A stretch of 64,000 nucleotides of DNA from Cafeteria roenbergensis (lineage: Eukaryota > Sar > Bigyra > Bicosoecida > Cafeteriaceae), in contig VLTN01000003.1 of assembly GCA_008330645.1 (NCBI GenBank), forward strand, positions 372,001 to 436,000, in the 5' to 3' direction. Of the stretch, positions 35,841 to 59,200 are shown piece after piece; the stretch's first letter is position 1, and every line of letters begins with the position of its first letter. Position numbers and translations under genes: made by a program. The notes beneath the pieces are model-generated. The model saw nothing but the letters and a program-made list of their open reading frames with translations. It was not told where the DNA came from and did not search any database.

Positions 35841-36246
35841 GGCAGCGCGATGCCTCGAACACGCGGGAAAAACCAACACACGAAAATCTGGATTCCGATT
35901 GCACTTCCCCCGTGCGGGCAGAAGGGCTTCCGCGCCTCGGGCCGCGACACACTCGGGCCTCGCCGAGACTCAGCGCCAGAAAGCACGCCAAGCCAGGCTC
36001 GAGAGCGATGAAAGCGCAGCTGGTGGCCGCGCCGGGCGTCGCTTCGGAGGCCGCGAGAGTGGCTCGGCCCGCCGGCAGAGGCCCGTATCGATATTTTCAC
36101 CCACGCAAGCATATCAGCCGGCAGAGCAGCGCAGCGCCGCAAGTTTGAACCTTGGCGAGACGACGGCGCTGCTGCGCGCGCCGCCAGACCCCACCGCACG
36201 AGAGAGCAACCCGGCAACGTCGCACTGGGCTAGCCCACGCGTGAAC
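35841..36246. promoter_or_regulatory. Divergent promoter region helicase/dNK
   Basis: 406 bp between opposed start codons. Contains the AT-rich island CGATATTTTC at about 36089..36099, unusual against the local GC content. Confidence 0.5.
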
Positions 36247-37053
36247 ATGGCGTCCGCCTCGTCTGCTGCGGCGCCCGGTGCTGCTGAAGTCAAGTTTGAC
36301 CTCGGCGCGGCGGCTGTGCCAGGCACGTTCATCTCCATTGCCGGCTTGATCGGGGCCGGGAAGAGCACGCTGTGCGACGCCCTCAGCAAAAAGCTGGGGC
36401 TGCCTGCATACCACGAGGCTGTGGACTCGAATCCGTACCTCGGGAAGTTTTACGCCGACAAGAAGAGCTTCGCGTTCGGCTTGCAGGTGCATTTGCTGAC
36501 GGAACGCTTCTCGCAGCAGCAGCGCATCGTGTGGATGGAGCGCGGCGCTGTACAGGACCGCTCCATCTACGAAGACGCGGTGTTCGCCCGCATGCTCAAC
36601 GAGGCGGGGGACCTGACGGACCTCGACTACCGCACGTACACGCGGCTCTTCAGCCAGATGAGCCGCTTCATGTCGCGACCCACCGCGCTGGTGTATCTGG
36701 ACCTCTCGCCGGAGGAGAGCCTGGAGCGGATCCGCCTTCGCGCGCGCAGCGTTGAGTCGGGAATCACTCTGGAGTACTTGCAGGCGCTGCACCGCAACTA
36801 CGAGATCTTCCTGACCGAGGTGGCCCTGACAGTGCCGGTTATCCGCGTCAAGTACGACAAGTTCTACGACGTCGACGCCGTGGCCCGCGCAATCGTGGAG
36901 GAGCTGAGAGGCATCGGGAACATTCGCTCCGTCACGGTTGACGACCCGGACGCGCCAAACGCCTCGCAGGTGGCGGCCAAGGCCAAGGATGCCACCCCAG
37001 CCGACGACGCTGCGGCCGCTGGAGGCGCAAGTGCTGCGGAGCCCTCGGCGTAG
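36247..37053 (+). CDS. Deoxynucleoside kinase
   Basis: A 268-residue, single-exon protein. It phosphorylates salvaged deoxynucleosides to monophosphates. The P-loop GLIGAGKST is near residues 31-39, in FISIAGLIGAGKSTL. The catalytic and substrate region includes YHEAVDSNPYLGKFY, FALQ-like FGLQVHLLTERF and the conserved QDRSIYED near 105. The LID motif RIRLRARSVESGITLEYLQ is near 155-175. GLIGAGKST matches bacterial deoxyadenosine/deoxyguanosine kinases more than the mitochondrial TK2/dGK loop (EGNIASGKST), so a purine-leaning specificity is possible but not shown. The C-terminal 40 residues are Ala/Asp-rich and poorly structured. The ATG at 36247 is chosen because upstream codons have no family similarity. 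Confidence 0.92.
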   Translation: MASASSAAAPGAAEVKFDLGAAAVPGTFISIAGLIGAGKSTLCDALSKKLGLPAYHEAVDSNPYLGKFYADKKSFAFGLQVHLLTERFSQQQRIVWMERGAVQDRSIYEDAVFARMLNEAGDLTDLDYRTYTRLFSQMSRFMSRPTALVYLDLSPEESLERIRLRARSVESGITLEYLQALHRNYEIFLTEVALTVPVIRVKYDKFYDVDAVARAIVEELRGIGNIRSVTVDDPDAPNASQVAAKAKDATPADDAAAAGGASAAEPSA

Positions 37054-37326: not shown

Positions 37327-40300
37327 TCAGAGATAGGCGACCACCGACCCGTCGGAACACGCGGCCCACACGCACGGGGTGAGCGGGTGCGCGCAAACGT
37401 CGGCCACGGCGTCCGAGGGCCCCCGCAGCCTGGCCAGGGGCACGGCGGGCGCCCGCAGGTCGAACACGTAGGCAGAGGCATCAGCGCTCCCGGTGACGAC
37501 GAAGCGCCCGCACCGCGTGAGCGTGGCCCCGGCGCAGAGAGGGCCACCGAGCCTCTGGGACTGTCCCGCGAAGGCCGCGACGGGATCCGCGCACGGCGTT
37601 CGCAGGTCCCACGCAAGAAGCGGCGCCGCAGAGCCGGCAGAGCTCGATCCCATGGACGCAGTGAGTGCCAGGTCGCCGAACGCGCGGACCACGCGCGGCA
37701 CGGCAGCCTCGGGCAGGGCAAAGCCCCCGCTCGCCGCCGGCCCTCCGCCCGCCGCCAGGTCCACCGCGCAGACCGTCCCGTCGGACAGGCCGACCAGCAC
37801 TCCCGTCCCGTCTGGGCCCTGCTCGGTGTGGAGGCAAGTGGTGGCCCGGGCGGGGGGGCCGGCCAGCCTGCTCACACCGCGAGACGCGCCGCCGCCCGCC
37901 CCGCCAGCTGCTGCCCTCGCGTCGCCGGCAAGACCAAGGTCCGCTGCCAGGCGGCAGCGGGTGAGCCCGTCTCTGCCCTGCACGCCGTCGCATAGCCCGT
38001 TTTCCTCCACCGTCAGCTCGTACACCAGCAGCTCCCGCTTCGCTGCCACGCACATCACCCGGTCCGCGTGGCAGAACCCCACGCCGGAGGGGCTTTCCAC
38101 GCGAGCCGCGGAGCCGACGCCGCCCGAACCCGTGCTCGGCGCGCCGCCGGTTTCCGTTGGTGCGCCGCGCGCGCGCGAGCCGCCTCGGGACGACGGGGGT
38201 TTCTTCGCCGCGCCGCCCCCCGACGTGCCGACGGCGCCGCTGCGCCGTCGCAGGGTGAGCAAGGGGGCAGACCGGCCGGCCGCCCAGACGCACACCGGAC
38301 CAGCGGAGTGCACCGACGCGACCAGCGGGACGGAGGCCTGTCTGGCATCGCTCGCTGACCGCAGGCCGCTTCCGGCCTGGCGCTGCCGGAGCATGAGGGC
38401 GCCAGCTCGGTAGGACCTCCACGACGTTGCGAGGGCCAGGACGGCCCCGGACCCGCCGCCACCGGCCGACCGCGGCGCGCCCCTGTCCCCGGCCGCCCCC
38501 GCGGCGGCGCCTCCAGTCCCCGCCGCGGCGCTCGCGGTGCCGTGCGCGTCCGGCTCGCCGCGCACCACGCCCGCGCTTCCCGCCCCGCTGCCCCCCGGAG
38601 GCCACTTGGCCCCGCCCGGCGGCACTGCGGGCAGCGCCACGGTGGTCACCGCCCCGTCCCACCCGCCCAGAACGAGCACCCGGCCCTGCCTGTCGACGCA
38701 CGCCCTGCGAAGCGCCGAGGACGCCGCTCGCGCGCCCCCCGACACTGCTGCCCTCGTCCTGCCCGCGCCAGCAGCGGCGTCGCCGTCCAGCCAGTCGCGA
38801 AACCTCTCACTCCACCTGGACGGCGCCACCGGTTCCAGCGGACTGCCGGGCACCGCAGCGGCTCCAGCCCAGCCCGCGTCGGCCACCAGCGCCGCCGCCA
38901 CGGCCTCCGGGTCCCGCTTCGAGGCAACAGCGTTCGCGAGTGCCTGCGCCCGGGCCGTCGCCCGCTCGCCCGCAACGCGCGACGGTGCGGGCTTCGCCTT
39001 GCGTCCCGCCCCGAAGAGCGCGGTTCGGGGCGCGGTCCCCCCGTATCCTGACGACCGAATCCTCGAGCCATCGAACACGACCGCCGCGGATGGGCCGGCC
39101 GAGGATCGGGCTCCCGCCGGCCCCCTCCGGCTCTGCCTGCTTCGGGCCCGGAGGGGCGGGTCCGCTGCCCGGAGGCCCCGCACCAGCTGCTGGCTGGCCA
39201 GGTGGGCGGGCAGCGGAAGAGTGGGCGCGGCGCCTGCCAGGCACCCCTCAGCCAGCGCGCCAGGCCCTGCTCGCAGCGTCGACGCGATGGTCGCGGGAAC
39301 GGCCCGGGCGGGAGCCGCGCCCGCATGCAGCGGCCTGCCGCTGCCTCGTCGGCCGGGCGCGGCGTTGGCCCGACTTGTGGCAACTCTGTCGCCGCCGGCA
39401 GCTGCTCGGCCTGCGGCTGTAGCCTCCCGGACGCGCCGCGGGCTGGGAGTGAGCGGGCTGTGCGGCCGGCCGGCGGCCCCGCTGCCCTGCCCTGCAGCGC
39501 TTGAGAGGGGCGACCCCGAACCGGCACCGCGCGGTCCGCCTGCCCGACTGTCCCGACCTCCCAGCGCCGGCCCCGGCGCACTGGAGCGCGAGGCGGCAGC
39601 CCACTTGCCCCTGGGGCCAGTCGCCAGCCCGCCTGCGGCGGGGGCACCCCCAGAGAGGGTGCCAGCCCCCGGGCCCGCGCCGGCCTCCGGCTGCCCCAGG
39701 AGCCATGCCGGCAGAGCGCGGGTCGGCGAGCCGTCACCAGCCCCGGCCCACCCATGCGCTCCCGGCTCCACCCCAGGGCCACTGGTCACGCTCGCAGCGC
39801 TGTTCACGGCGCCTTCGTACCCGCCGTCGAGGCCGTCGTCCACGTCATCGAACGAGCCGTCGCCGTAGTCATCGCTGTCGTCCCCGTAGCCGCCAACGCC
39901 TCCGGCGCACGCTGCCGAGGCGTCATCCCCGCCCGGGTCCCTGGCACCGCCTCCGGCGCCTGCCCCGACGCGCCGCCCTGCCGCGTCGCCTCCAGCTTCC
40001 CGTTCCTCATGCGCGCCGCCCCGCAGCCAGCCGGACGACACCACGGACGCGGACCGACCCCAAACGCTCCACACACACGCGATGTCGCCGCGCACGCCGG
40101 CGCGGCCAAGGACAGGCGCCGGGTCCATGTCGTCCCCGGGCTGCGACCGCGACACCGTCACCACAGCCTCGCCTCTGGCAGTGGTCGCCACTCCAAGGGC
40201 GACGCTGGGCGCGACTGCCCACTTCGCCGAGCGCACACCGTCCCCGCCAGCTGCTGCGCCCGGCGCCACGGGCACAGGAAGCCGGGAGGCTAGGTCCAGC

Positions 40301-41665
40301 AGCACGATGCCGGCAGAGCTGCAGCACGCGAGCAGGCTGGGGCGCTGCTTAGCGGCAGGCGACGACACTGACTCCAGCCATGAGGGCACGAGCGACTCTG
40401 CGGCGCCCGCGTCGGAGGCGGCCGGGCCCGAGGCGGCTCCGGCGACGGCTTGGCCCGGCAGGTGCATCAGCGCCGTCACGGCGATCGAGCCGGCAGGATC
40501 GACCAGCACGCCGGCCGAGGGGGCGTGGTGGGCAGCTGGACGCACGCCCGCCGCGGCCCCAGCGGCTCCAGCGGCTGACAGGCTGGCTGTTTGCAGCAGC
40601 GGCACGGCCAGCCGAGCCACGACCGTGGCGCGAACGGCATAGCCGCCTTCGCCACGCCCACCAGCGGCTCCCGCGACCCATCCTAGCAGCACCTCCCCGG
40701 CCTGCGTGCCCATCGCCACGGCAGAGGAGCCAGTCCGAGCGCCTGACTGCTCGGGCAGCAGCGCCAGGCATCGCGGCGGCGAGGAGCCCAGCACGCCGGA
40801 GCTGGCCGCGACGCAGTCGTTCTGCACGTCCCACACTTCGAGGGCGCGGCGCGCAGTGCCGACGAGCGCGAGGCCTCTGTCGGCGTCAAGCAGAACAGCG
40901 CACAGTGCCGCCGACCAGGTCCGTTCCCACCGCGAGCGCGAGGCATCCCTGGCGGCCCACGCAGCCGCCTCCAGCTGGAAGTCTTCTGTGGACGCCCCTG
41001 AGGGCGGCGTTGTGGGCCGTGGCCCGGGAACTGGAGGGCGCTGCGGCGGCAGCACGGACAAGACGCCCGAGCCGCCCGAGCTGCCTGCCTTGGACACGTC
41101 GGCCACCGCGATCCTCCCGCCTCCGCACAGCAACGCGAGGGAGCCCATGGCGCAGAGACCGCCACTGGACGCCATGACGGGCACGTCCCGCGCGAGCACG
41201 GAAAGCTCAGCGTCGCCGCAGTCCCGCACCGAGAGCAACTCGCGCTCCGTGGCTGCAAGCGCCATGGCGCCGCCCGTTCGCAGCGGGCACAAGGCCCTTA
41301 TACGCCCCCTACAGGAGCCGGCCGTGGTCCATGCCCCCCCGGCAAGCGGCTGCGAGGAGGCCGGCAAACGGCAATTCATTGTGGCACGGTGTGGAGCGCT
41401 CGCAAGTCACGGACACGAAGCCGTGCTGGCCCACGCCATTCGTTGCAGCGCGCGGTGTGTGGTTTGTGCGGCTGTCCACGCGACGGCCGCGACGGGAGCG
41501 GGCGAGGGGCAACGGGCGTTGCGCGCGCTCTTGGGCGCGAGAGCTCACTCGAGCCAGGCACTCTGCTCGGCGGCCAGAATACGTTGCAATAATGACATCC
41601 TCCCCGGACACGGTCATGGCGGTGACATCCTTTCCGCACACGGCCTCGTCGCGGGTCCACTCCAT
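37327..41665 (-). CDS. Large WD40-repeat protein, WDR27-like
   Basis: Exon 1 41549..41665 (39 codons, MEWTRDEAVCGKDVTAMTVS) splices in phase 0 across a 198-bp intron to exon 2 37327..41349, giving 1379 residues. The junction restores a beta-propeller opening (DVIIATYSG ... RIRALCPLRTGGAMALAA). WD-like blades occupy roughly 1-420 (DRGLALVGTARRALEVWDVQ) and 1000-1379 (GVLVGLSDGTVCAVDL; GRFVVTGSADASAYVFDLRA; CVWAACSDGSVVAYL). Between is a Gly/Ala/Arg/Ser-rich linker of several hundred residues. The ending (CGRFVxxGSxDxxAYVxDLR, then a final blade) resembles WDR27 as I recall it; human WDR27 is shorter. WDR90-type centriolar proteins are the main alternative. No function can be assigned from sequence. 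Confidence 0.65.
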
Positions 41666-41764: not shown

Positions 41765-44101
41765 TCAAGCGAGGGCCTCCGCGGCTGCGGCTAGGCTCGC
41801 CATCGCCGCCCTCAGGCGCGGGGTGCGGCTGCCCTCCCGCTGGGCTGCGTCGCAGGCCCACCCTAGCGTCGCTGCCAGCTCGTGGGCGGTGCCCCCGCGC
41901 TTGCTGGCCAGCAGCGAGCAGACGTTGTCGCTTGTGGCCGTGCCCACCTGCACCGCGGCGTCCATGATCGAGCCGGCCACTTCCTCGTCGCCCACGCCGT
42001 CCGCTGCCCAGGCAAGGGGGTCCGCAGCGCTGGTCGACGCTGGGCCGGCGGCGCCGCGGAGACGCCTTGCCTCGGAGCGCACCACGGGCACCAGCTCCTC
42101 TGCCAGCGCACGCACCACCGCTCGGAGGCGTCCCTCCGGGGCAACGGCCGCGCCGTTTGTGACGCCCGCCGTGGCCGCAACAGCCACCAGCGAGCAGGTC
42201 ACCGACAGCTTCCGCAGCCGCGCGGCCGCCTGCTCGAGCGGGGAGAGAACCTCGCCCCCGAGGCCCGCGCGAGCCAGCCACGCTGCCACGCTCTCCGCCG
42301 CGTCGAGCTCCTGCTGGGTCGAGAACGCACCGCCCCCGCCGCCCGCTCCCCCCGTGCTGCGGAGCAACGGAGCGACGCTCGTCGTATTCGCGGGCCCGCC
42401 AAAGTGCGCCACGGCACCGCCCTCGAGCGTGGCCCCGTGCGTGGTCACGCAGTCAAGGACGATGGCGCGCCCGCGAAGGGCAGCCTGGAGGGCCTCTGCC
42501 GCCCCCATCCCGTTCTGGATCGCAATCACGACGGGCGGCGGCGCGCCGCGGTCAGCCGGCGAGGTGCAGCCGTCGCCGAGGGGCGGCCAGGGCCGCAAAA
42601 GCTCGGCTGCCATCCCAGCCGCGGAGCGCAGCTGCTCCGGGCAGTTGCGAACGGCGACAAGCGCCACGTCGGCCTGGCCGCGCCCGGCATCCGCCGCAGC
42701 CGAGGCGCCTGCGCCCGGAACGTGCTCGGCGGCGGACAGGCCCTCCCGCACTGGCACAAGGGTCACGGGCAGGGGGTGCTCTGCATGAGCGGCGCCAGTG
42801 GCGTTGCCGCTCGAGGCCGGGCGGTCGCCGGCACCGGCACTGCGCGCGCTGGAACCGCCAGCGGAAGCAGCAGCGGAAGCAGCAGCGGCAGCCAAGCGTG
42901 TGGCGAGGAGCCTCCCGATGGCGCCTGCGCCGACCACGGCGAATCGCTGGCTTGGAAGCTGGCGAGAGCCGCCCCCCTCCCCCGCCCCCGCAGACGCCGA
43001 GGCGCTCCCACCCCCGCCGTGCGAGCCGCGTGTCTCCGGCCAGTCAAGGCCCGCGCTGAGGGCGTCGTCCTCCTCCCAGGCCTTCCGAAACGCCGCTCTG
43101 GCCCGCGGCGCCATTGGCCTGCTCTCGGCGTCGGAGGGGAAGGACCCGTCCCTCACAGCGCTGGCAAAGGCCTCCGCGGCGGCCTGCGCCGCCGGAGCGA
43201 GCTGCGCGAAGCGCCTGGAAAAGCGCGGCGCCCTTGCGTGAGGCGGCGTGAGACCCAGCGCGTCGTGCAGGACAAGCACCTGCCCGCTGCAGCCCGGCCC
43301 CGCGCCGATGCCAATGGTGGCCACGCCCATGGCGCGCAGCCGCGCCGTGGCTGCCGCTGCAACCTCGTCGGGCACCATCTCCAGCACGACGGCGCGGGCG
43401 CCAGCGTTGGCAAGAGCGACCGCGTCAGCGACGACGGCACGCCCCCCCGCGCTGTCCTGGCCCTGCACGCGGAAGCCAGTCGCCGCGCCGGCGGTCTGTG
43501 GCAGCAGGCCCACGTGTCCGACCACGGGAATGCCGGCGCGCGAGAGCGCTCGAACCGTGCCAGCCAGGTAGTCGCCACCCCCCTCCAGCTTCACGGCGTC
43601 CGCGCCCCCCTCGGACATTAGCCGCGCGGCTGCGGTGAGCGCGTCAGATCGCTGGAGGTACGTCCCGAACGGCATGTCAGCCACGACGAGGCTCCGTCGC
43701 GCGCCCGCTCGAACCGCTCGAGTGTGGTGGACCATGGCGTCCAGCCCGACGCCCCGGGTCGACTCCATGCCCAGGCACACATTGGCCACGCTGTCGCCGA
43801 CAAGAAGCATGTCCACCGTGCCGTCGAGCAAGCTGGCCCACCCGGCGTCGTAGCACGTGAGCATAGTGACAGCTTCGGTCGCCAAGACCTTTCGCCGAAT
43901 GTCCGCAAAGGACATTTTCGGCTTTTGCGCGGACGCAGGGGCGGCCTGCCCAGCAGGCGGAGCGCCCGCGGTCGAATATACGTTGCGGGCCCTCGCGGGG
44001 GCGGGCGCGGAGCGTGCAGGTCGCAACTCTCGCGCGGTTGTCACCACCGCGCTGCGGGTCAGACCGCGACGCATTCCGGCAAGGGGCCGAGCCGGCCGCA
44101 T
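41765..44101 (-). CDS. Bifunctional PanB-PanE fusion (pantothenate synthesis)
   Basis: A 778-residue, single-exon fusion of ketopantoate hydroxymethyltransferase (PanB) and ketopantoate reductase (PanE), consecutive steps from ketoisovalerate to pantoate. The N-terminus (MRPARPLAGMRRGLTRSAVV) is Arg-rich and mitochondrial-like; an upstream Met at 44194 is possible. PanB, about 60-320: MSFADIRRKV, MLTCYDAGWASLLD, MLLVGDSVANVCLGM, DAVKLEGGG, PVVGHVGLLPQTAG, LEMVPDEV and IGIGAGPGCSGQVLV. PanE, about 345-778: Rossmann start FAVVGAGAIGRLLATRL, IAIQNGMG, RLRKLSVTCSLVAVAA with the candidate catalytic Lys, VTNGAA and a C-terminal TAHELAATLGW where E. coli has the TEID region. The Rossmann acidic residue is unclear because of an Ala/Ser-rich insertion. 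PanB-PanE fusions are known in coccidian apicomplexans. Confidence 0.9.
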   Translation of the reverse strand: MRPARPLAGMRRGLTRSAVVTTARELRPARSAPAPARARNVYSTAGAPPAGQAAPASAQKPKMSFADIRRKVLATEAVTMLTCYDAGWASLLDGTVDMLLVGDSVANVCLGMESTRGVGLDAMVHHTRAVRAGARRSLVVADMPFGTYLQRSDALTAAARLMSEGGADAVKLEGGGDYLAGTVRALSRAGIPVVGHVGLLPQTAGAATGFRVQGQDSAGGRAVVADAVALANAGARAVVLEMVPDEVAAAATARLRAMGVATIGIGAGPGCSGQVLVLHDALGLTPPHARAPRFSRRFAQLAPAAQAAAEAFASAVRDGSFPSDAESRPMAPRARAAFRKAWEEDDALSAGLDWPETRGSHGGGGSASASAGAGEGGGSRQLPSQRFAVVGAGAIGRLLATRLAAAAASAAASAGGSSARSAGAGDRPASSGNATGAAHAEHPLPVTLVPVREGLSAAEHVPGAGASAAADAGRGQADVALVAVRNCPEQLRSAAGMAAELLRPWPPLGDGCTSPADRGAPPPVVIAIQNGMGAAEALQAALRGRAIVLDCVTTHGATLEGGAVAHFGGPANTTSVAPLLRSTGGAGGGGGAFSTQQELDAAESVAAWLARAGLGGEVLSPLEQAAARLRKLSVTCSLVAVAATAGVTNGAAVAPEGRLRAVVRALAEELVPVVRSEARRLRGAAGPASTSAADPLAWAADGVGDEEVAGSIMDAAVQVGTATSDNVCSLLASKRGGTAHELAATLGWACDAAQREGSRTPRLRAAMASLAAAAEALA

Positions 44102-44595
44102 GGCCACAGGTGCCGCTGCTGTGCCCCCCGCAAACAGCCCGGGCGGGTGCCTCTCCCTGCCTCGCTGGCGCGCAAGTGTGGCGCGGGGGGACATGCTTGC
44201 TGACTTGCCGCGCAGCCCGCCAGCTCTGTTCGGCGCTCTGCTGACTCGGTTCGAGCCTCTTGCAAAGCTGACCGGGATCGGCCGGTCGGCAAGAGCAGCG
44301 CAGGCGCTTGCACGAGGCGTGTGGCGGCAAGCAAGGGTGCTGTTTTCACCTGGTTCTGGCGCTAGACCGACACAAATGCACCCCACAGCAGCTCCTCGTT
44401 CACCCGCACTGATGGCCGCTCTTCAATAAAAAGGTGTGTTGACTCAAGGTCGGGTACGGCAGGGCTCAAGCCGCATCGCGGGTCGGCCGGACACTGTGGG
44501 CCAGCCGACACGCGGCGCAGCGAGCGGGCGGGTGGAGCGGGAGCCACTGTGAGACGCAAAAGGCAACAGTCCAGGCAAGCACACCAAGACTGCGC
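44102..44595. other. Intergenic, tandem minus-strand genes
   Basis: Between the PABP stop and the PanB-PanE start. Minus-strand TTTTGCGTCTCAC lies about 40 nt past the PABP stop. An AATAAA at about 44426 is on the plus strand, away from any plus-strand gene. No gene seen. Confidence 0.5.
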
Positions 44596-47142: not shown

Positions 47143-50100
47143 ATGTCCAACGCGTGAGGCTGAGGCGCAGCGCCGCGAGTGCTCTCGTGCGCCCACGGGG
47201 TCGCAGGTCGCGGCAGGGCAGGGGAGTGTGTGTGTGTTTGGGGGGGGGGGGGGGGGGGGAGGGCCGGGTCTGGGGCGCTTGCTGCCTGGCGTCGCTGGGC
47301 CACGCTTGCCCGCACTGTCGCGCGCTCGCGATGCTGGCGCCCCGCTCGCCCGCAGAACCTACGATGAGATATGGCAGTCAGCCATGGTCGCCCTGAACGA
47401 GCAGCTACACATCGAAAACCACGAGCTTGGGCTGCCCGAGGGCCACCCAGGCGTTCCCGTGAGCGGCCCGCACAGCATCGTGCGCAGCGCACTACGGGCG
47501 CGAACGGCTGGCATGCGCACCCAAACCAAGTTGGGGGTGGCTTTGCCGGAGCCGTCTGGCCTGGGGAGGAGCCACTGCCGCCTGGACTCGGGTCGCAGGG
47601 CAGCCGGCAGCGCGCACAACGGGCTTCTGCCACCCGGCCGCCCTCTCGGCGCGCCACAGCACCCAGCCAAGGACACCACGGCGTCTGCAGCGTGGTTACG
47701 AGCTGGTCGCTGCTACAGCGCCCGTCAAGCGCCCACCCGGTTGTGTTGATGGGCGTTGGGAAGGGGCGCGCGTTGTCAGCGACTTGCACTCGCCGCTCCT
47801 CCGCTGCTAGCCTTGACTGCCGAGCGCGCGCCCTTCGCCAAGCTCTCTCCCCCTGTGCCCCGCAGAGTGCCCAACCTACTATGGCGGAGGCCTACGTGCA
47901 TTACGCAGCGCTGTACGTCAAGTATGTTCAGATCCTGCGGCAGCTGGACACGGCGCACCGCGGCATGAAGCACCCGCAGAAGCGCGGCCTGGTCCGCCGC
48001 GTCATGGAGCTCGTCATGACTCGCGTCGTGCAGTTGAAGCACGAGCTTGTCAAGTGGAACCCCCCCAACCCTGGCCTTCCTAAGGACCGTCCCTTTCCCT
48101 GGGAGTGGGTGAACCTGGACTCCCTGCTGTACGACCTCAAGCTGCAGCCCGAGGCGCTGGACCTGCCCCTGCCGCGCTTCATGACGGAGGACCGCGCAAA
48201 GTTCCTCAAGCACCGCGACGACCGCATTCGCAGCCAGATCAAGCTCAAGCTGGGCGTGGAGCGCGTGCTGGTTGAGCTGGACGACGTTCTCTTCGACGAC
48301 GAGTCGCAACGCATGGACCCGGCCCAGGCCATCGCCATCCTGCGCCGCAACGAGCGTGGAAGGCAGGGCAGGCACCGCGCGCTGGCCGTGATGGCAATGC
48401 GTGCTCGCGGCGACGACGGCGGAGGGACCTCGGGCGGGGCAGCGGCTGGGGCCGGCGCTTCGTCGGGGGCAGGCGGCATCGGCATCGGTATCGGCTTTGA
48501 CGGCGAGGAGGGCGAGGCCCGCATGGACGAGGAGCTGGCCGCGGCGCTGATCCAGAAGGTGGTCCGCGGGTTCATCTCCCGCCGCAGGGCGGCCAAGGCG
48601 CGGGAGCAGGAGCTGGTGTTCGTGGGCATGCGGCCTGCGCCGCCGGGCAGGCTGGAGCAGCTCGAGGGTGCGGTTCGGGAGGCGGATGCGGTGCGCCGGG
48701 AGGAGCAGCGGCAGTTTGCCGAGGAGTACGCCCGGGCGCGCGTGGACCTCAAAGCCACGGTGAGGGAGGAGTCCGGCGCTGACATGCGCGAGGAGTGGAT
48801 GAAGGTGACGTCGTCGGTGGTGACCAAGCAGGTGATGGCGGGCGGGGCAAGCCTTGAGGAGCTGGCGTCGTCCGCGGAGCCGCTGGAGGTGCTGCACCGC
48901 CTGCTGGCAGCAGCGAGCGGGGCGGGGGGCGACGCACCCCCCGAGGAGGAGGACGGCGCGGGCGACAAGAAGAAGGGCGGCGGCGATAAGAAGAAGGGCG
49001 GCAAGGCCGCGGCGGACAAGAAGGGGGGCAAGAAGAAGGGCGGCGGCGACGAGGAGGAGGCCGAAGACCTGCCCATGCCCCTCACGGGGCCGAGCATCTA
49101 CTCGACAGAGCTGCTGGCAACGGTGGAGCAGTACGAGCGGGTGTGGGCGCACCGTGACGAGAGCGCCAACCCGCAGCAGCGCTACGACGAGGAGCTGGAG
49201 CGCGAGGCGGTGCGCGCCGTGGTGGAGACGGACGTCCGCCGAGAGGTGGAGGAGGCGCTCGTTGCGCAGCTCAAGAACTGGGCCAAGACGGTCGCGGCCG
49301 GCTCGAGCAAGAAGAAGAAGGGCGCCAAGAAGGGCAAGAAGGGCAAGAAGGGCGCCAAGGGCAAGAAGGGCAAGAAGCTCCCCGGCGAGAAGTTCTGCAA
49401 GGATATGGACGAGATGGACATGCTGTCCGCCCTGGCCGAAGCGCAGATCATCAACAGCCCGCGCGAGGGAGTGTCCGTGGCCGACTTCCAGGGAGAGTTT
49501 GACTTCCTGTCCACGGAGCGGGCGACGGCCAACTCGGCCGCGTACATGACCGACAAGCCCGACCCGCACTGGGTGCCAGGCGACCCGTGCTACCCGCAGA
49601 TCCGCCAGAACGTCACGGAGTACTGCGTCTACCCTCTGGGCTCCCGCGCCGTTCGCGAGGGCGTGGCCACGTACTGCGAGGAGCGCAAGCTCCCCGCCCT
49701 GCCCCGCTCCATCATGCTCTTTGGGCCCCCGGGCACCGGCAAGACCATGCTGGCGCAGGGCGTGGCGAACGACACGGGCGCCGTCTTCTTCAACCTCAGC
49801 CCCGGAAACACGGACGGCAAGTTCACCGAGAAGAGCGGTCCAGCCAAGCTCCTCCACATGGTCTTCACCCTCGCGCGGCACGAGGAGATCCAGCCCGCCG
49901 TCATCTACATCGACGAGTGCGAGCAGTTTTGCACCGCGGGCAAGGCCAAGGGCAAGGCGGAGGGCGGCGCCCGCTTCAAGAAGGACCTCCCGGCCTACAT
50001 CAAGTCGCTCGTGCCCGCCGACGGCGTCTGCGTCATCGGATGCAGCAGCCGCCCCTGGGACGGCGACGTGAAGACCGGCAAAGCCTTCCGCGCCGTGTTC

Positions 50101-50538
50101 CACCGCTTCCTCTACATCCCGCAGCCCGACTACTCCACCCGCCGCCGCGTGTGGCGCGACGCCGTGTTCCGCGCGCTGCGCGCTGGAGGTGCCACCATGC
50201 CCGTAGACTTTGACCTCTCCACCCTCTCGCACGTGAGCAACGGGTACACGGTCGGGAGCATTCTCAAGACCGTGCGGGCCACCCTGACGCCCCGCCGCGT
50301 GGAGCGAGTGCGGTCCGGCAAGCGGCCCCTTGTCGTGTCCGAGCTGCTCGGCGCCCTGTCCAAGTGTCCACGTGTGTACGGCGACTCCCTCGTGGGCGAC
50401 GACGGCGGCCTCGAGGGCTTCTCCCTCTTCGTGGACATGATCAGCGGCTACAAGGCAGCCCGGGCGGCCATCGCCGACGACGATGGCGGCGGTGCAAAGG
50501 GCGCCAAGGGCGCCAAGGGGGGGAAGAAGAAGAAGTGA
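47143..50538 (+). CDS. DRC11: Nexin-dynein regulatory complex subunit 11 (IQ and AAA domain)
   Basis: Exons 47143..47153 (MSNA), 47356..47458 and 47866..50538 join in phase (introns 202 and 407 bp) to give 928 residues; human IQCA1 has about 820. DRC11 is an axonemal N-DRC protein that ties dynein activity to outer-doublet linkage. The splice yields MSNATYDEIWQSAM, matching the human MSHATYNQMW opening, and then YVHYAALYVKYVQILRQLD. An IQ motif (ALIQKVVRGFISRRR) is near 263. The AAA domain has Walker A GPPGTGKT near 660, Walker B VIYIDECEQ near 720 and sensor-1 GCSSRPWDG. Three Lys/Gly-rich low-complexity stretches (near 400, near 525 and the C-terminus) are insertions relative to human. It is good evidence for a motile flagellum. 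Confidence 0.93.
47240..47259. repeat. Poly-G run (20) after short TG tract, in DRC11 intron 1
   Basis: Twenty consecutive G preceded by a (TG)n tract at about 47227..47236, within the first DRC11 intron. Run length is uncertain in any assembly. Confidence 0.9.
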
Positions 50539-51030: not shown

Positions 51031-54000
51031 TCACTCAAGGAAGGGCGCGGCAGCCTGGAACACCTCATCCGGCTTGGGTGTGGTGTCGACAACGCGGCTC
51101 TTGCCCATCGCCTCAAAGTAGGAGACGACGGGGAGCTTCTCCCGCTGGAATGCGCTCACGCTGCGCATCAGCGCGGCCTCCTCGCCCACGGTGGGGGTGC
51201 CGGCGATGCGCGCCTTGCGCTGGGCGAGGTGCGCGTCGAGGCAGACGCAGCCGCGCACGGGTCCGACCGCCTGGTCCAGGGCGAAAACCTGGTCATGCAC
51301 TGCCGGGAAGCCCTCTGAGGTGAGGCGCGGGAAACCGTCCAGGATGAAGCGGCCGGCCTTTGACCGGGAAATCGCCTCCTTGACGATGGCCACGGTGGCG
51401 TCCAGCGGGGAAGTGCGCTTCATGCTGAGAGCGCGGCGGACAGCACGGCCGCGGGGCGTCTCGTGGGCGGCCTCAGCCTCGAGGAGCTCGCGCACGCGGA
51501 GCGTGTGGTAGCCGAGCTCAAGTCCGGCGCGGGCTGAGAACTCGCCCCGGCCGCTGCCAGCCGCGCCGCAGAGGACCACGAGCTCGGGCTGGAAGAAGAC
51601 CCGCGTGGCCGCGTACACCTCGGAGCTTGGAGGCACTGCCGACACCGAGCGCAGCAGGCCGCGGGCCTTGTAGTCGGCCACGACGGGCATGCTCTGCTCC
51701 AGGAAGGTGTGGAAGCGCTTGACGATGGTGGCCTCGTTGTCGTCGGCGCGGCCGGAGGTCTTGCCGCGCGCCAGGAGGCGCTTACGCATCTCCGCCTCGG
51801 GGCAGTCGAAGAAGAGGACGGTCTGGGGCTGGCAGACGAGCCGCTCAAAGGCCTCCGCCTGGTCCCTGGAGCGCGGGAAGCCGTCGATGAGGAACTTGCG
51901 GCCTGGCGAGCGGCGGATCGCGCCGCGCAGCATCGCGACGGTGGTGTCGGGGGGCACGAGCAGGCCGTCCTTCATCAGCTCCTGCATCTCGCGGCCCACG
52001 GCCGAGCCGCTTGCGACTTCCGCTCGGAAGAGGTCGCCCATGGAGAGGTGCGTGAAGCCGAACTCCTCCTTCAGCTGGGCGCACTGGGTGCCCTTGCCGG
52101 AGCCGGGACCGCCCAGCACGAACACGACATTGGGCAAGAAGTGCGTGCGGGTCTCGGCGTACACCTCGTCTGGCGTGGCAGTGGCGTCCACGGCCATGAC
52201 AAGGCCGCTGCGCGCGTAGCGGTGCACGACGGGCATGCTCTGCTCCTGGAAGGTGTGGAAGCGCTTGACGATGGTGGCCTCGTTGTCGTCGGCGCGGCCG
52301 GAGGTCTTGCCGCGCTCGAGCAGCCGCTCGCGCATGGCCGCCTCGGGGCAGTCGAAGAAGAGCACGCCGGAGGGGAGGCCGAACGCCTCCTCAAAGCCCT
52401 CCGCCTGGTCCATGGCCCGGGGGAAGCCGTCGATGAGGAAGCGGGGCGCGCCTGCCGCCCGCATGGCCTCCTTGAGCAGGGCCAGCGTCGTGCTGACGGG
52501 CACGATGGAGCCAGCGACGATGTGGGCCTCGATCATGGCGCCGTCCTCGGAGCCGCGCGAGCGCTCGGCCCGCAGCAGGTCCCCCGCGGACAGGTGCACG
52601 AAGCCGAACTCCTCCACCAGGCGCGCGCACTGCGTGCCCTTGCCGGAGCCCGGCCCGCCCAGCACGAAGTAGATCTGCGGGAGGAGCACCTTCCGGAAGT
52701 CGGCGTAGGTGCGCTCGCGGGGCTGGTTGGTGTCCACGCGGGTCACCAGGGCCTGCTTGTCGTACATGTCGAGCACGCGGCGCGTCTTGTCGTTGAAGGA
52801 GGCCAGCTGGCGGTCGACCGAGGCCTGCGAGTGGTCGTTGCGCCCCGCGGTGTGCCTGCGAGCGCGCGCCCGGCTGCGGAGAACGTCGTCGGGCGCGTCG
52901 CAGTGGACCACCGCCATCGGGCGCCCGACGGCCTTCTCGAACAGAGTCGCCTGCTCCAGGGTGCGCGGGTAGCCGTCGAGCAGGAAGCGCCCCATGCCGG
53001 CCTTGTCGCGAGCGAGGCCGGCCTGCAGAACGCGCAGCGTCAGCTCGGCCGGGACGAGGTCGCCCCTGGCGAGCAGCTTGCCGACCTGCGCGCCCAGCTC
53101 CGTCCCCAGGGCGGCCTCGGCGCGGAGCAGCTCGCCCGTTGACACGTGCGTCCAGCCGAGGTCTGCGGCGGCTTGGGCGCAGAGGGAGGAGCGGCCGCTC
53201 GCCGGCCCGCCGAGGACGAAGATGACCTGGGGCTTGAAGTGCTCCTTCGTGGCCTCGAACACCTCGTCGGGCGTCTTGCCCTCCGTGTCCACGGAGCGCA
53301 CGACGCCCAGGCGGCGGTAGAAGTCGATGACGGGGCTCGACTGCTCCTTGAACACCGCGAAGCGGTGGCGGATGGCCTCCACCTTGTCGTCGGCCCGGCC
53401 GGACGTCTCGCCGCGCTTCACAAGCCGGGCCTCCAGCGTGGCCTCGAGCGCTGCAAAGTCCAGCACCATGGCGGGCTTGCCGACGGCCTTTTCGAACGCA
53501 AAGGCCTGGTCGAGAGCGCGCGGGTAGCCGTCCACGAGGAAGCGGCTGCTCCCGCTGTCGTCCATGGCCTTGCGAAGCAGCTGCAGCACCGTGGCCGTGC
53601 TCACAAGGCCCCCGGTGGACATGGTCGCCTGAAGCTCCTTCCCGAGCTCCGACTCGCTGGCCACCTCGGCGCGGAGGAGGTCGCCGGTGGAGAGGTGCGT
53701 GTAGCCGAACGCCTCGCTAAGGCGCGCGCACTGGGTGCCCTTGCCGGAGCCGGGAGCGCCCAGCACGAAGACGATGCGCCGCTTGGAGTCGCTCGCAGCC
53801 GTGGGCTCGGCGTAGCCGGCGCGGCCCACGTGCAGCTCGCTGCTCACCTCCACGACGGACGGCTGCGGGGACAGCGCGGCCGCAGCTCCTGCGCCGCTGG
53901 CCGCGGACCGAGCAGAGCCGCGCCCGCCACCACGGTCCTCGGCGTCCTTGGTCTCCTCGTCGTCTTGCTCCTCCACGACCACGCCGCGCCTCCCTGCGCG

Positions 54001-55656
54001 GTCGTGCGCTGGCCGGGGGGACGCCTTCTCGGCGCTCGTTCCCCGCCGCGGGTTGTGGTCCACGAGCCACTGGCCGAGCCAGCGGAGCGCCTCCAGCTTG
54101 TCCTCGGACGGCCTTGCCTTGGCCAGGGCGGTCATGCCCTGGACCAGCACCGAGCGGAGCGTCGCCGGCACGCTGTTGTTCTCCACCGGGTTGTACACCA
54201 TCGCAACCTGCCTGCGCTCCACGAAGGCCTTGGCCTCGTCGTCGCTGGGCAGCGTGTGGGGCGCAAAGTCCGGGAAGTAGAAGCGGATCTCGCGAGCGGC
54301 AGAGCCGGGCGCGTCAGAGCCGTGGGTCGCGTTGCGGGTCCCGTCGATGCCGAAACGGGCCCGGAGGCTGCTCGGGGCGTCGGTGCGGGCCTTGAAGGTG
54401 TTGGTCGGGCCCATGAGTGCGCGCCATGCCTTGATGGCACCGGGCTTGGCGAGCACCATGGCGATGACGGGCCCGCTTGCGATGTAGGACGTGAGGCGCT
54501 CGAAGAAGAACTTGCCGCGGTGTTCCTCGTAAAAGGACTCCACCTGCTCCTTGCTGAGCCTGGCGCGGCGCTGGGCAGCGATGGTGAAGCCGTGGGCGCG
54601 AATCTCTCGCATGATGTCCGCGCGGTGCTCATCGGCCGTGCCTGGCTTGATCACCGCGAGAGTGTGCTCCACGGGCAGAGGGCCCTCGAACACGGCGTCG
54701 ATTGCCCGCGCGGCGTCGACGGCGCTCCTGGGGGCCAAGGCCGCGAGCCCATCGCCGTCGTCGGCGCCCGGGCTGAAGACGGCGTTGATAGAGGCCGGGG
54801 CCTTGTCCTTGGCAGTGGCCTTGCCCTCGCGGGGCCCCACCATCAGGTAGAGCTGCAGGGCCGCGCAGCTCCGCTCGAGCACCAGGCAGACGCACTCGCC
54901 TCCCTGGGCCGCCGCAGCAGCGCCCTCGGCGGCGCCGTCACAGAGCATGGCCGCCTGGTCCGCGGTGAGGGCGCGCTGCTTGCGGGCGATGCACACAAAC
55001 TCCCGCTGCTCCAGCTGGGCAGTCACCTCGGCCTCGTGCTCGGCCGCACCGGGCAAGAGCACCAGCATCGTGCGCTCCCAGCGCGGCTTCTGAGGGAAGA
55101 AGAACTCCTCCTCGCGCAGAGCACTAAAGGGGGAGTCGGACCCGTGCGTGGCGTTGAACGAGCCGTCCGTGCCGAAGAGCGCGCGCAGGCCCCACTGCGA
55201 CTCGTCCAGCGGGTGGGCCGCGGCAGCCTCCTCGCGGGCCTTGATCGAGTTGGTGGGGCCCATCAGGGCGCGCCAGCCCTTGATGGCCATCTCGCGCTCC
55301 AGCACGAGGGAGACGATGGGCCCGCTGGTCATGAAATCCGTCAGCTTCTCGAAGAATGGCTTGCCCCGGTGCTCCGCGTAGAAGCCCTCGGCTTGCGCCT
55401 TGGTCAGCCTGCGCGTCACTTGCTTGGCGATGCGGAAGCCCGCGCCCTCGATGCGCTTGAGGATTTCCGCCGCCTTGTCCGGTGCACGCTCCACCGAGGT
55501 CTCCACCCAGCGCTCCACGGTGCCGTCCTCCGTCTCCTCCTCCACCTTTTTCATGACCTTCTCCATCCAGGGCCGCCCGCACGCGTCGGGCTTGATCAAG
55601 GCGAGCGTGCGCTCGAGGGGCGCGGTTGCGGCCGTTGCGGCAGCGGCGTCGGCCAT
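51031..55656 (-). CDS. Multi-domain NDK/adenylate kinase fusion (3 NDK + DPY30 + 5 AK)
   Basis: A 1541-residue, single-exon protein from MADAAAATAATAPLERTLAL. NDK units interconvert NTPs and NDPs; AK units run 2 ADP = ATP + AMP. NDK-A (about 15-185) has LALIKPDACGRP, MGPTNSIKAR and the catalytic His in NATHGSDS near 170. A second unit (about 195-305) keeps only the fold start and lacks the His motif. NDK-C (about 335-455) has LAVIKPG, MGPTNTFKAR and NATHGSDA near 444. A DPY30-like docking motif (LVQGMTALAKARPSEDKLEA, about 492-527) follows. Five AK units come next, about 185 residues apart: P-loops GAPGSGKGT, GGPASGRSS (degenerate), GGPGSGKGT, GGPGSGKGT and GAAGSGRGE (degenerate). Intact units keep STGDLLR-type, DGYPR/DGFPR and GRADD motifs. 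An axonemal energy role is likely by analogy with NME5 and sea-urchin flagellar AK. A Met at 55815 would add a presequence-like leader. Confidence 0.92.
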   Translation of the reverse strand: MADAAAATAATAPLERTLALIKPDACGRPWMEKVMKKVEEETEDGTVERWVETSVERAPDKAAEILKRIEGAGFRIAKQVTRRLTKAQAEGFYAEHRGKPFFEKLTDFMTSGPIVSLVLEREMAIKGWRALMGPTNSIKAREEAAAAHPLDESQWGLRALFGTDGSFNATHGSDSPFSALREEEFFFPQKPRWERTMLVLLPGAAEHEAEVTAQLEQREFVCIARKQRALTADQAAMLCDGAAEGAAAAAQGGECVCLVLERSCAALQLYLMVGPREGKATAKDKAPASINAVFSPGADDGDGLAALAPRSAVDAARAIDAVFEGPLPVEHTLAVIKPGTADEHRADIMREIRAHGFTIAAQRRARLSKEQVESFYEEHRGKFFFERLTSYIASGPVIAMVLAKPGAIKAWRALMGPTNTFKARTDAPSSLRARFGIDGTRNATHGSDAPGSAAREIRFYFPDFAPHTLPSDDEAKAFVERRQVAMVYNPVENNSVPATLRSVLVQGMTALAKARPSEDKLEALRWLGQWLVDHNPRRGTSAEKASPRPAHDRAGRRGVVVEEQDDEETKDAEDRGGGRGSARSAASGAGAAAALSPQPSVVEVSSELHVGRAGYAEPTAASDSKRRIVFVLGAPGSGKGTQCARLSEAFGYTHLSTGDLLRAEVASESELGKELQATMSTGGLVSTATVLQLLRKAMDDSGSSRFLVDGYPRALDQAFAFEKAVGKPAMVLDFAALEATLEARLVKRGETSGRADDKVEAIRHRFAVFKEQSSPVIDFYRRLGVVRSVDTEGKTPDEVFEATKEHFKPQVIFVLGGPASGRSSLCAQAAADLGWTHVSTGELLRAEAALGTELGAQVGKLLARGDLVPAELTLRVLQAGLARDKAGMGRFLLDGYPRTLEQATLFEKAVGRPMAVVHCDAPDDVLRSRARARRHTAGRNDHSQASVDRQLASFNDKTRRVLDMYDKQALVTRVDTNQPRERTYADFRKVLLPQIYFVLGGPGSGKGTQCARLVEEFGFVHLSAGDLLRAERSRGSEDGAMIEAHIVAGSIVPVSTTLALLKEAMRAAGAPRFLIDGFPRAMDQAEGFEEAFGLPSGVLFFDCPEAAMRERLLERGKTSGRADDNEATIVKRFHTFQEQSMPVVHRYARSGLVMAVDATATPDEVYAETRTHFLPNVVFVLGGPGSGKGTQCAQLKEEFGFTHLSMGDLFRAEVASGSAVGREMQELMKDGLLVPPDTTVAMLRGAIRRSPGRKFLIDGFPRSRDQAEAFERLVCQPQTVLFFDCPEAEMRKRLLARGKTSGRADDNEATIVKRFHTFLEQSMPVVADYKARGLLRSVSAVPPSSEVYAATRVFFQPELVVLCGAAGSGRGEFSARAGLELGYHTLRVRELLEAEAAHETPRGRAVRRALSMKRTSPLDATVAIVKEAISRSKAGRFILDGFPRLTSEGFPAVHDQVFALDQAVGPVRGCVCLDAHLAQRKARIAGTPTVGEEAALMRSVSAFQREKLPVVSYFEAMGKSRVVDTTPKPDEVFQAAAPFLE
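51679..51769. repeat. 91-bp intragenic repeat, copy in AK unit 4
   Basis: Matches 52225..52315 at 90 of 91 bases by direct reading. Encodes GKTSGRADDNEATIVKRFHT and the following EQSMPVV of adenylate kinase unit 4. Confidence 0.85.
52225..52315. repeat. 91-bp intragenic repeat, copy in AK unit 3
   Basis: Partner of 51679..51769, offset by 546 bp (182 codons), one mismatch (Leu/Gln codon in FHTFLEQ versus FHTFQEQ). Confidence 0.85.
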
Positions 55657-56226
55657 GCTGGGAAGCCGGAGGCACCGGGCTTCGGTCAACTTCGTGCAGC
55701 CTCGGCGCGGGGCAAGGACGACGAGCTCCTCGCTGGGGCAGCAGGCTGCCGCGCAGGTGGGGCGGGCGCACGCGCGCAGCAGCGCGCGGCAGAGCGGCCG
55801 CCGCGCAACGAGCATGGAGGGTTTGCGCAACGCGGCAGAGCCGGCGCTCGCCACCGACGCGAATGGCCAGCGAGAGAGGGCATTCCCACGCGCCTCGCCT
55901 GCAGCGCCCACGAGCGCGCGCGGCTTGCTGTCCAAGGCGCCAAAACGCGCGATCGACCGGTGGGCGGCTACCCGCAAATATTTTTTTTTCGCCCCCTTTC
56001 CCGCTGCCCTTCCGCCCAGCCACTCTGAGACCATGCCGGCGGCAGCAAAACAAACGGCGGGAGTGTGCGACCAGGACACCGCTGCGGCGCCTACGGCCCG
56101 CAACAAGCATAGGCTGCACGGCTCTCTCTTTTCGACCCGTGGGGCGCAGCACCGACGCAGGCTCACACGCAACCACTGACTCGCACTCCGCCCGCAACGC
56201 CTGCTCCTGCCGGGGGATCGAACCGC
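55657..56226. other. Intergenic, tandem minus-strand genes
   Basis: Between the Lon stop and the NDK-AK start. It should hold the NDK-AK promoter; an AT-rich island (AAATA followed by nine T, 55976..55989) stands out. The Lon 3' 9-mer is at 56164..56172. No gene seen. Confidence 0.55.
56164..56172 (-). terminator. Candidate 3'-end element TTGCGTGTG (Lon)
   Basis: Exact 9-mer, sense orientation, about 55 nt past the Lon stop codon. Confidence 0.4.
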
Positions 56227-59200
56227 TCACGCACGCGCATCGGCCGTGCCTTGCGCCTCCCGCGCAGCAGCGAGTTGCGCCGCCATGGCCTCGGGCCTCG
56301 CCCCGAAGGCAACCTCGAAGACGTCGGCGTACTCGCTCGCGAAGTTGATGTCAAGGCCCGCCACGGCGTGGTCAGGGAGCTCCTCCACGTCCTTGCGGTT
56401 GTTCTCGGGGAGCACGAGGCAGGTGACGCCTGCGCGGCGCGCTGCCATGACCTTCTCGCGGATCCCGCCGACGGGAAGCACCTTGCCGGTGAGGCTAATC
56501 TCGCCGGTCATGGCCAGGTCCGCGCGCGCCGGGCGGTCCATGGCAAGCGACAGCATGGCCGTGACCATGGTGCAGCCAGCGCTGGGGCCGTCCTTGGGGG
56601 TGGCGCCCTCTGGTACGTGCAGGTGCAGGGAGGCAGAGTCCAGGAGGTGGCAGTGCGGGTCGACGCGGCGCATGAACGCGCGGGCAAACGATTGGCCGAT
56701 GCGCGCCGACTCCTGCATCACGTCGCCCATCTTGCCCGTGAGGAGCATCGTAGGGTTGCCGCCGCCGGCCTTGAAGCGCCGAGGCTTGCCGCCGCTGTCG
56801 CCGCCATCGGCGACCGCCGCGTCCGCGTCCGTCTCCATCTCCATCAGCCCGGCATCCGGGGAGGTCACCTCAATGTAGAGCGCTGCGCCGCCCATGCTGG
56901 TGTACGCCAGGCCCATGATGACGCCCGGGGGCGACTGCGGGTAGAGCCGGTCGGAGGTGAACACGGGCTTGCCCACGTAGTCCTTGAGCTTGTCCGAGTC
57001 GATGGTCCAGTCAACGTCGTGCAGTCCCGGGATGCTGGGGGGCAGCTGCGCCGCGAGGGCGTCCTCCTCTTCGCGGCGGCGGCGGAGGGCCTCGGCGGCG
57101 GCCTTGTCCTTCTCCTCCTCAGTCATGGTCGCCGAGGAGGCGGCGGCGGCGGCGCCGCTGCCGGGTGCTGCCCCTGCGGCCGGGGCAGCGCCGTCTGACT
57201 TGCCGGCAGCAGCCGCCTCCTCGTCCACAGAGTCCTTGATCGCGCGGGCAATGTCGTCGGTCGAGCCGGAGTGCACCGAGGCCTCGTCGGCGGCAGCGGC
57301 GGCGCCGTCCTGCGCCTTCTTGGTCCTGAGCTCGTCGATGGCCTTCTCGCGCGCCTGCACGATGCGAAGGGCTGCCTTGCGGAAGATCTTGTTCACGTGC
57401 TTCTCAAGGTTGCGCACGCCGCTCTCGCGGCAGTACCAGCGGATCAGGGTCTTGATGGCGTCGTCGGTGAGCGTGAGGGACTCGGGGACGGCGCCCGCGA
57501 CGGTGGTGTCGCTGCCGCTCAGGCCGTTCTCCTTGCGGGCCTTGGGCTCGAGGTAGCGCTTGGTGATCTCCAGCTTCTCGTCCGCGTCGTACCCGCTGAG
57601 GTCGATGACCTCCATCCGGTCGCGAAGGGGCCCGGGGATGGTGTCCATGACGTTGGCAGTGCAGAGGAAGAGCACCTTGGAGGCGTCGATCGGCGTGTCG
57701 AGGTAGTGGTCCATGAAGGCCTCGTTCTGGTTGGGGTCCAGCATCTCCAGCAGCGCCGAGGCGGGGTCGCCGCGGTGGCCGCCCTGGCCCATTTTGTCCA
57801 CTTCGTCGATGAGCACGAGGGGGTTGCTGACCTTGGTGAGCTTGAGGCACTGGATGAGCTTGCCGGGCATGGCACCCACGTAGGTGCGGCGGTGCCCCTT
57901 GATCTCGGCCACGTCCGAGAGGCCGCCAACGCTGAACCGGTAGAACTTGCGCCCAAGCGCGCGGGCAATGGACTGCCCGATTGAGGTCTTTCCCACGCCG
58001 GGCGGGCCCACGAGGCAGAGGATCTTTCCCTTGATGGAGCCGGTGAGCTTGGACACTGCGATGAACTCGAGGATGCGGTCCTTGACGTCTCGCATGCCGT
58101 AGTGGTCTTCGTCCAGGACGCGGACGGCGTGGCCCAGGTCAAAGGTGTCGTCTGAGAAGACGCCCCACGGGAGGGAGGTGAGCCAGTCGAGGTAGTTGCG
58201 GGTCATGTTAAACTCGCTCGAGTTGCGCTCCAGCACCCGCAGCTTGTCCAGCTCCTCCTCGAACACCCCCTTGGCCGTCTCCGGCATGCGGAGCTCTTTG
58301 GCGCGGTCCTCGAACTTGGAGATGAGAGTGTCCTTGTCGTCCTTCTCGATGCCGAGCTCCTTCTTGATGGTCTTGAGCTGCTCGGTGAGGAGGTACTTTC
58401 GCTGGCTCTCCTTCATGCTCTCGTCCACGCGGGACTGAATCTTGGCCTGCAGCTTGGACACCTCGAGCTCCTTGCGCATCATCTGCAGGGCGAGCTGGAG
58501 CCGCTCTTCGAGGCTCTCCGCCTCCACCACGCGCTGCACCTCCTCTGCGTCGGCGGTGGTGGCGCTGGCGGCAAAGTCGGCAAGCCTGAAGGCGTCGTGG
58601 ACCTCCACACGCTCCGTGAAGTACGTCATCTGCTCCTTGAACATGGGGTTGGTGCGAACGAGCTCGCGGATGGCCGTGACAATCTCGTTGGTCAGGGCCT
58701 TGACCATGTCCGAGCGCAGCTGCGAGCGGTCCTGGTCGAAGTGCTCCACGCCCACAACGGGGGGCATGTCAGTGGTGAGCACCTCGTTGGCCCGGATGCG
58801 GCGGTGGGCCATGAACCACGCGACGGCGCCCCCCTCCGGAGTCTGCGCGAAGGTCTGCATCGAGGCCAGCGTTCCCATCTCGCTCAGGTCCTCGGGGCTG
58901 CGCGCCACCGTGGACAGCTGGCCGGAGGGCGCCTCGACGGCCGACTTCTCCAGAAACAGCCCCACATAGGACGGGGCGCCTTTCTTGCTTGCCTCGTGGA
59001 GCTTCTTCAGAGCTGCAACAAGCGTCGCGTCCGACGTGTACATTTGAGTCAAGAACCACGGCATGACGGGCTTGCGCACAGGCAGGGCGAGCACCTGAGG
59101 CACCTTGGGGGCCTGCTCTCCCACCCCCGCGCGCATCACGGCCGTGGGACGCCCGGGCACGAGCGAGGAGCCGTCGTCGTCGCCGCTGCCCTTGCCGCCG

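Follow-up and report, generated by a model that had tools for sequence, protein, structure and literature searches.

In Cafeteria roenbergensis, a single gene encodes one chain in which three NDK units are followed by a Dpy-30 motif and then by five units of the adenylate kinase type (AK). The gene lies on contig VLTN01000003.1 within the window, the whole stretch of 64,000 nucleotides (positions 372,001 to 436,000) that was analyzed. By analogy with known spoke kinases, the product is probably an enlarged NME5-like (RSP23-type) axonemal protein that would serve as a spoke-docked ATP-regeneration module.

The gene and its surroundings

On the minus strand, an uninterrupted open reading frame of 1667 aa spans positions 51031-56034, with a third-position GC of 0.91. 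The plus-strand frame starting at 51031 contains stops. The G+C content of the window is 70.7%, with long open frames, and the published value for Cafeteria is 70-71% (PMC6972860); similar values also occur in other protists. Codon-frame scoring used Lon, DRC11 and a poly(A)-binding-type protein, all encoded in the window, for training. It gave values near zero over residues 1-120 (0.04 to 0.23 per 40-codon bin), values of 0.52 to 1.95 in all bins from there to the stop, linker included, and negative values in the other two frames of the ORF. Because the coding signal begins near residue 121, Met127 (base 55656) is the better start, as had been proposed in an earlier note on this DNA. The likely coding sequence is 51031..55656 on the minus strand; it comprises residues 127-1667 of the frame (1541 aa) and the stop codon. 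The note had also taken the gene to be one single open frame, and the lack of any stop and the positive frame signal from residue 121 agree with this.

On the sequence evidence, the repeated units are old and diverged rather than assembly copies. The closest pair, AK3 and AK4, is 61.6% identical in amino acids and 69.4% identical in DNA, which is the highest DNA identity among 13 aligned unit pairs, and NDK1 and NDK3 are 56% identical as an aligned pair. With no recent DNA copies among the units, an artefactual duplication or the assembly collapse that had been considered earlier is unlikely.

The fusion gene is convergent with a DRC11 gene (47371-50538, plus strand), whose ORF matches solved structures, among them a chain annotated as dynein regulatory complex protein 11 (8.6e-86) and an AAA ATPase chain of entry 8glv (1.5e-101). 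A Lon protease gene (56227-59136, minus strand) lies upstream on the strand of the fusion gene. A ciliated host had been argued from SAS6L and DRC11 in the window. The adjacent DRC11 gene supports this, while a Pfam scan that covered 31 of the window's 97 ORFs of at least 150 aa did not find SAS6L. This part of the support is unconfirmed but not refuted, because such a scan could overlook a gene that is spliced or shorter.

A second nucleotide-kinase gene, encoding a deoxynucleoside kinase (35629-37053, plus strand; Pfam dNK, 2.3e-49), lies about 14 kb from the fusion gene. Two pantothenate-pathway steps are joined in one ORF (41765-44194, minus strand), which contains PanB (ketopantoate hydroxymethyltransferase, 1.2e-88) and PanE/ApbA (ketopantoate reductase, two Pfam models). 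A guanylate-binding-protein-type GTPase is encoded at 13050-15272 (minus strand; GBP N 6.2e-52, GBP C 6.6e-15), here in a protist. In an open frame of 3751 aa (15765-27020, minus strand), a C2 domain near the start is the only domain recognized, and a large ORF at 37327-41379 (minus strand) gives weak WD40-type matches only. The ORF at 6816-8615 (minus strand) weakly matches the Pfam luciferase catalytic domain PF10285 (E 5.5e-4, below the cut-off), which represents dinoflagellate luciferase.

Intact and degenerate units

Pfam searches with the whole protein and with single slices returned the domain count and order that had been read from the letters alone, and the motifs quoted at that time are present at residues 294, 568, 759, 942, 1126, 1308 and 1490. 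In the whole-protein search, ADK matched in five stretches (5.8e-174) and NDK in four (2.7e-82), with NDK1 split in two by its own insert. All features of the chain are on the minus strand. The Dpy-30 motif (54043..54159) was placed by a Pfam slice match and by alignment with RSP23. It scored just under the cut-off of 22 in the whole protein (5.1e-4, 20.1 bits) and above it as a slice (8.5e-6, 25.8 bits), and its region gives weak alignments to NME5 chains (0.2-0.9) and to one chain of DPY30 (5.8e-4). A low-complexity linker that matches no family (53788..54042) leads from this motif to AK1. No IQ motif was found in the fusion protein with one simple pattern; Chlamydomonas RSP23 carries IQ motifs.

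All 11 tested catalytic residues are present in both NDK1, which is of the NME5 type (55087..55623; Pfam NDK 2.7e-39), and NDK3, which is of the NME5/RSP23 type (54262..54675; 2.2e-42). These include the nine residues described as crucial, two of which are reported to be lost in human NME5 (PMC7024210). Strand 1 and helix 1 of NDK1 are separated by a charged insert (about 30 residues, 55480..55569) that NDK3 lacks in the alignment, and the Kpn loop of NDK1 exceeds that of most compared prokaryote NDKs by 12 residues. The distance from T94 to R105 is 23 in NDK1 and 14 in NDK3, compared with 11 in 73/83 prokaryote and viral NDK loci (14 in three of them and no motif match in seven), and NDK3 shows the three-residue Kpn-loop insertion of NME5-like/RSP23 proteins. 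The two insertions of NDK1 could interfere with the oligomer on which activity depends. An unspliced intron was considered for the NDK1 insert and found no support: in a scan of 225 bases for GT[AG]...[CT]AG only, the sole in-frame GT-AG pair would remove residues that align with NDK3.

NDK2 (54685..55080) retains none of the 11 tested catalytic residues, and its slice scores 16.6 bits in Pfam (NDK, E 0.0073), below the cut-off of 27. Its hhalign probability against NDK1/NDK3 is 67. With a local HMM of 21 NDKs, NDK1 and NDK3 included, it reached 26.3 bits, a score attained by 0/3917 scored shuffles (5000 made; best 6.8). With E up to 5, the sequence found only three PDB chains, two of NME7 and one of NME5, and these weakly (0.51-0.64). 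An AF2 model from an alignment of 23 relatives has the NDK fold (pLDDT 86.9), partly dictated by the relatives used, and its best PDB matches, among the first 50 of 946, are NDKs, NME5 and RSP23 being in the top five. The model from NDK2 alone was uninformative (pLDDT 41.5). NDK2 is best regarded as a real but decayed NDK that is still recognizable.

In each AK unit, 12 residues with known roles were tested, in human AK1 numbering. AK1 (53233..53787; Pfam ADK 3.1e-44) keeps 12/12 and is nearest to AK isozyme 1, with 196.3 bits for TIGR01360 (AK isozyme 1; cut-off 284.1) and 169.6 for TIGR01359. Its best PDB chains are AK1 (177 bits vs. 138 for Ura6). AK4 (51592..52137; 4e-44) keeps 11/12, with T39 changed to Met, and stands between the two families, below both cut-offs (UMP-CMP 196.6, AK isozyme 1 193.9), with AK1 as the best PDB chain (181 bits vs. 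173). AK3 (52138..52683; 1.4e-41) also keeps 11/12, with T39 changed to Ala, and passes the cut-off of TIGR01359 (UMP-CMP kinase, NCBIfam; 218.6 bits, cut-off 207.6). Its best PDB chain is the yeast uridylate kinase Ura6 (1uky, 185 bits vs. 173 for the best AK1), and its combination of Ala at the Thr39 position and a conserved Gln101 is also that of Ura6. Yeast Ura6 is reported to phosphorylate AMP, CMP and UMP and not GMP (PMC13397275), and the sequence of AK3 suggests a specificity broader than AMP, with CMP and UMP as well.

The AK trees, from which human AK5 was left out, agree less well. With 13 rows, AK3 falls outside a group with 99/97 support that holds three UMP-CMP kinases and one further row (L084). 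With 10 rows, it stands beside the three UMP-CMP kinases (70/89), and its placement with AK4 or with AK1 and AK4 is not rejected (p-AU 0.417 and 0.426). The trees hold too little signal to tell an internal duplication from two sources of the five units. They also do not place AK1 in or outside the AK1/AK5 group to which the ADK of Nme5-like proteins belongs; its best family score, for AK isozyme 1, is under the cut-off.

AK2 (52684..53232; Pfam ADK 1.4e-30) is a probable pseudokinase that keeps 9/12 tested residues, with Arg in place of the P-loop Lys, Gln in place of R149 and His in place of D141. AK5 (51034..51591; 5.2e-12) appears to be a pseudokinase as well, with 3/12 residues kept, a shortened lid and the changes K21R, R44E, R132I, R138V and R149S, among others. 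The phosphate-binding set is kept in AK1, AK3 and AK4, and key residues are lost in AK2 and AK5. The units judged inactive in the earlier note therefore also look dead in the residue table. Its five AKs hold as a count of ADK-type folds but not as plain AMP-type enzymes throughout, since AK3 passes the UMP-CMP cut-off and AK4 has Met39. They are therefore better described as two probable pseudokinases and three NMP kinases that are probably active but perhaps not AMP-specific in every case.

Relatives of the fusion

In an NDK tree of 21 rows (NDK2 left out, the NME5 row of 109 aa only, and no row for NME8 or NME6), NDK1, NDK3, RSP23 and NME5 form one clade with support of 95/93, separate from NME7 and from 12 prokaryote NDKs. 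NDK3 and the Dpy-30 motif together align with RSP23 residues 4-199, along both domains (5.3e-51). The link to NME5 suggested earlier is supported by the clade and by this alignment. RSP23/NME5, a protein of the radial spoke neck, shares with the fusion the order of NDK followed by Dpy-30 as well as the clade of NDK1 and NDK3; to our knowledge, RSP23 and NME5 have no AK units. Tandem NDK units, some of them degenerate, are also known from NME8 (thioredoxin and three NDK) and NME7 (DM10 and two NDK). The whole-protein Pfam scan, which returned 25 families, found neither a thioredoxin domain (NME8 feature) nor a DM10 domain (NME7 feature) in the fusion, and the NDK branches of NME7 exclude NDK1 and NDK3 in the tree.

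Dpy-30 motifs of mouse Rsph23 (NME5), Rsph2 and Rsph4a are described as wrapping the Rsph3b helix (PMC10774353). In mammalian spokes, RIIa or DPY30 domains tether AK8 to the RS1/RS2 neck and AK7/AK9 to RS3; these AKs, which contribute ten catalytic AK domains to each 96 nm, are presented as a system for ATP regeneration (PMC11779644). Several Tetrahymena AKs are reported to depend on particular spokes (PMC12399478). A sea urchin flagellar AK has triplicated domains (cited in PMC2680645), and the flagellar AK and NDK genes listed for Phytophthora infestans carry separate gene numbers (PMC3471859). Vertebrate NME5 is described as NDK plus Dpy-30 without NDPK activity, and its loss in humans leads to ciliary disease (PMC13256974, PMC2777172); adenylate kinase is unmentioned in the main text of both papers. 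AK9, AK8 and the sea urchin AK resemble the fusion in having several AK units per chain (four, two and three, respectively). In AK7/AK9, the docking DPY30 domain is C-terminal, whereas in the fusion Dpy-30 precedes the AK units. We know of no NDK units in AK9, AK8, AK7 or the sea urchin flagellar AK.

The closest published architecture is Nme5-like, with NDK, Dpy-30 and a C-terminal ADK, which is described in basal members of three supergroups and is proposed to be an ancestral fusion that was later split into NME5 and AK5 (PMC7024210). The Nme5-like protein of the red alga Chondrus crispus is reported to have NDPK activity with ATP, dATP and GTP as donors (273, 184 and 225 U/mg), undetected with dGTP, and to be multimeric, DNA-binding and both nuclear and cytoplasmic in transfected human cells (PMC7024210). 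The Cafeteria protein is alike in the order of NDK, Dpy-30 and ADK, in the nine crucial residues and in the Kpn-loop insertion of NDK3, and it shows the ancestral-type feature, with five ADK units C-terminal to Dpy-30 in the same chain. However, the Chondrus protein as described has one NDK and one ADK, compared with three and five here, dead copies and a Ura6-like AK3 among them.

The novelty is therefore smaller than was first thought, because the core NDK-Dpy-30-ADK fusion has already been described (PMC7024210). As far as searched, what is new is the expansion to three plus five units, the presence of both live and dead copies and a possible pyrimidine-capable site. No description of several NDK and several ADK units with Dpy-30 in one chain was found in the open-access literature searched, although such a chain may be among the 37 Nme types of PMC7024210. 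The sequence collections searched were viral, genome and plasmid ones, without eukaryote genomes as such. In viral contigs, the fusion protein as a query found no such architecture, the NDK alignment found three loci and the AK alignment none. From prokaryote genome contigs, the best 80 of 546 loci confirmed with the NDK alignment were taken, and the searched ADK motif was present in the NDK frame or the rest of the fetched locus in 0/83 cases (these 80 and the three viral loci). Among plasmids, 0/280 matching records cover 80% of the query.

Possible role in the axoneme

If the fusion is an axonemal protein, its Dpy-30 motif would pair with a partner and dock on the long helix of RSP3, or on CFAP91 in RS3, a step that we infer from NME5/RSP23 and AK7/AK9. 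Docking would put the catalytic units beside dynein, regularly spaced along the axoneme. From the residues kept, AK1, AK3 and AK4 would convert 2 ADP to ATP and AMP, and AK3, perhaps also AK4, may accept CMP/UMP. Using the His of NATHGSD, NDK1 and NDK3 would exchange phosphate between NTP and NDP, which would link GTP/UTP/CTP to the ATP pool. NDK2, AK2 and AK5 may be structural or interaction modules. One chain could then do the work of NME5 and AK8, or AK7/AK9, which are separate spoke subunits in mammals.

The clade of NDK1 and NDK3 with RSP23/NME5 and the DRC11 neighbor count for this axonemal reading. So do the continuous coding frame, the alignment of NDK3 and Dpy-30 with RSP23, the nine crucial residues, the docking of NME5 and of several AKs on spokes in other organisms, and the NDPK activity of the Chondrus fusion. 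The inactivity of human NME5, the lack of an IQ motif, the sub-cut-off Dpy-30 score in the whole protein and the insertions of NDK1 count against it. The only characterized fusion of this kind is that of Chondrus; red algae are a group without flagella, and in human cells the protein was nuclear and cytoplasmic, so the architecture alone does not prove a flagellar site. It is unlikely that the protein is instead a soluble (cytosolic or nuclear) nucleotide-pool enzyme that holds the NMP-to-NDP-to-NTP steps together and uses Dpy-30 for oligomerization only. The reported properties of the Chondrus protein (active, multimeric, nuclear/cytoplasmic and DNA-binding; PMC7024210) fit such an enzyme, as do the apparent capability of AK3 for pyrimidine NMPs and the deoxynucleoside kinase gene 14 kb away, but NDK1 and NDK3 cluster with axonemal NME5/RSP23, and the host has DRC11.

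It is still less probable that the chain is mainly a structural spoke scaffold, in which the kinase folds are mostly kept for shape with little catalysis. By their residues, 3/8 units are dead or probably dead, and human NME5 shows that a protein without NDPK activity can still cause ciliary disease when lost (PMC13256974, PMC2777172); however, 5/8 units have full tested catalytic sets, except for the NMP-base residue in AK3 and AK4, which is unexpected for a pure scaffold. Very improbable is the idea that NDK-NDK-NDK-Dpy-30 and AK x5 are two genes with frames joined by chance at the linker, or that a cryptic intron is present. After the start, the frame signal does reach its minimum in the low-complexity linker (residues 665-749), with 0.52 and 0.62 in the bins for 665-720, but there it is still positive, as it is throughout, with no stop and with negative scores in the other two frames, and published proteins share the order of NDK, Dpy-30 and ADK (PMC7024210).

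The spoke-docked ATP-regeneration module might even be an NMP-to-NTP relay, with AMP-type and Ura6-like sites, two NDP kinase sites and the dead units as spacers, although this is a doubtful extension. If true, one subunit would stand in for RSP23/NME5 and for the spoke adenylate kinases, and nucleotide recycling inside the flagellum would extend from adenine to pyrimidine nucleotides. In mammals, NME5 and separate AKs are described within the same spoke structure (PMC11779644, PMC10774353). Whether the NDPK activity of the Nme5-like protein comes from its NDK or its ADK part is left open in PMC7024210, and this can be addressed here by expressing the live and dead units of the fusion apart. 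With both enzyme types in one chain, and with some units intact and others erased, the gene offers a natural experiment, which points to a common site for the two activities and allows one to ask which of the units must work.
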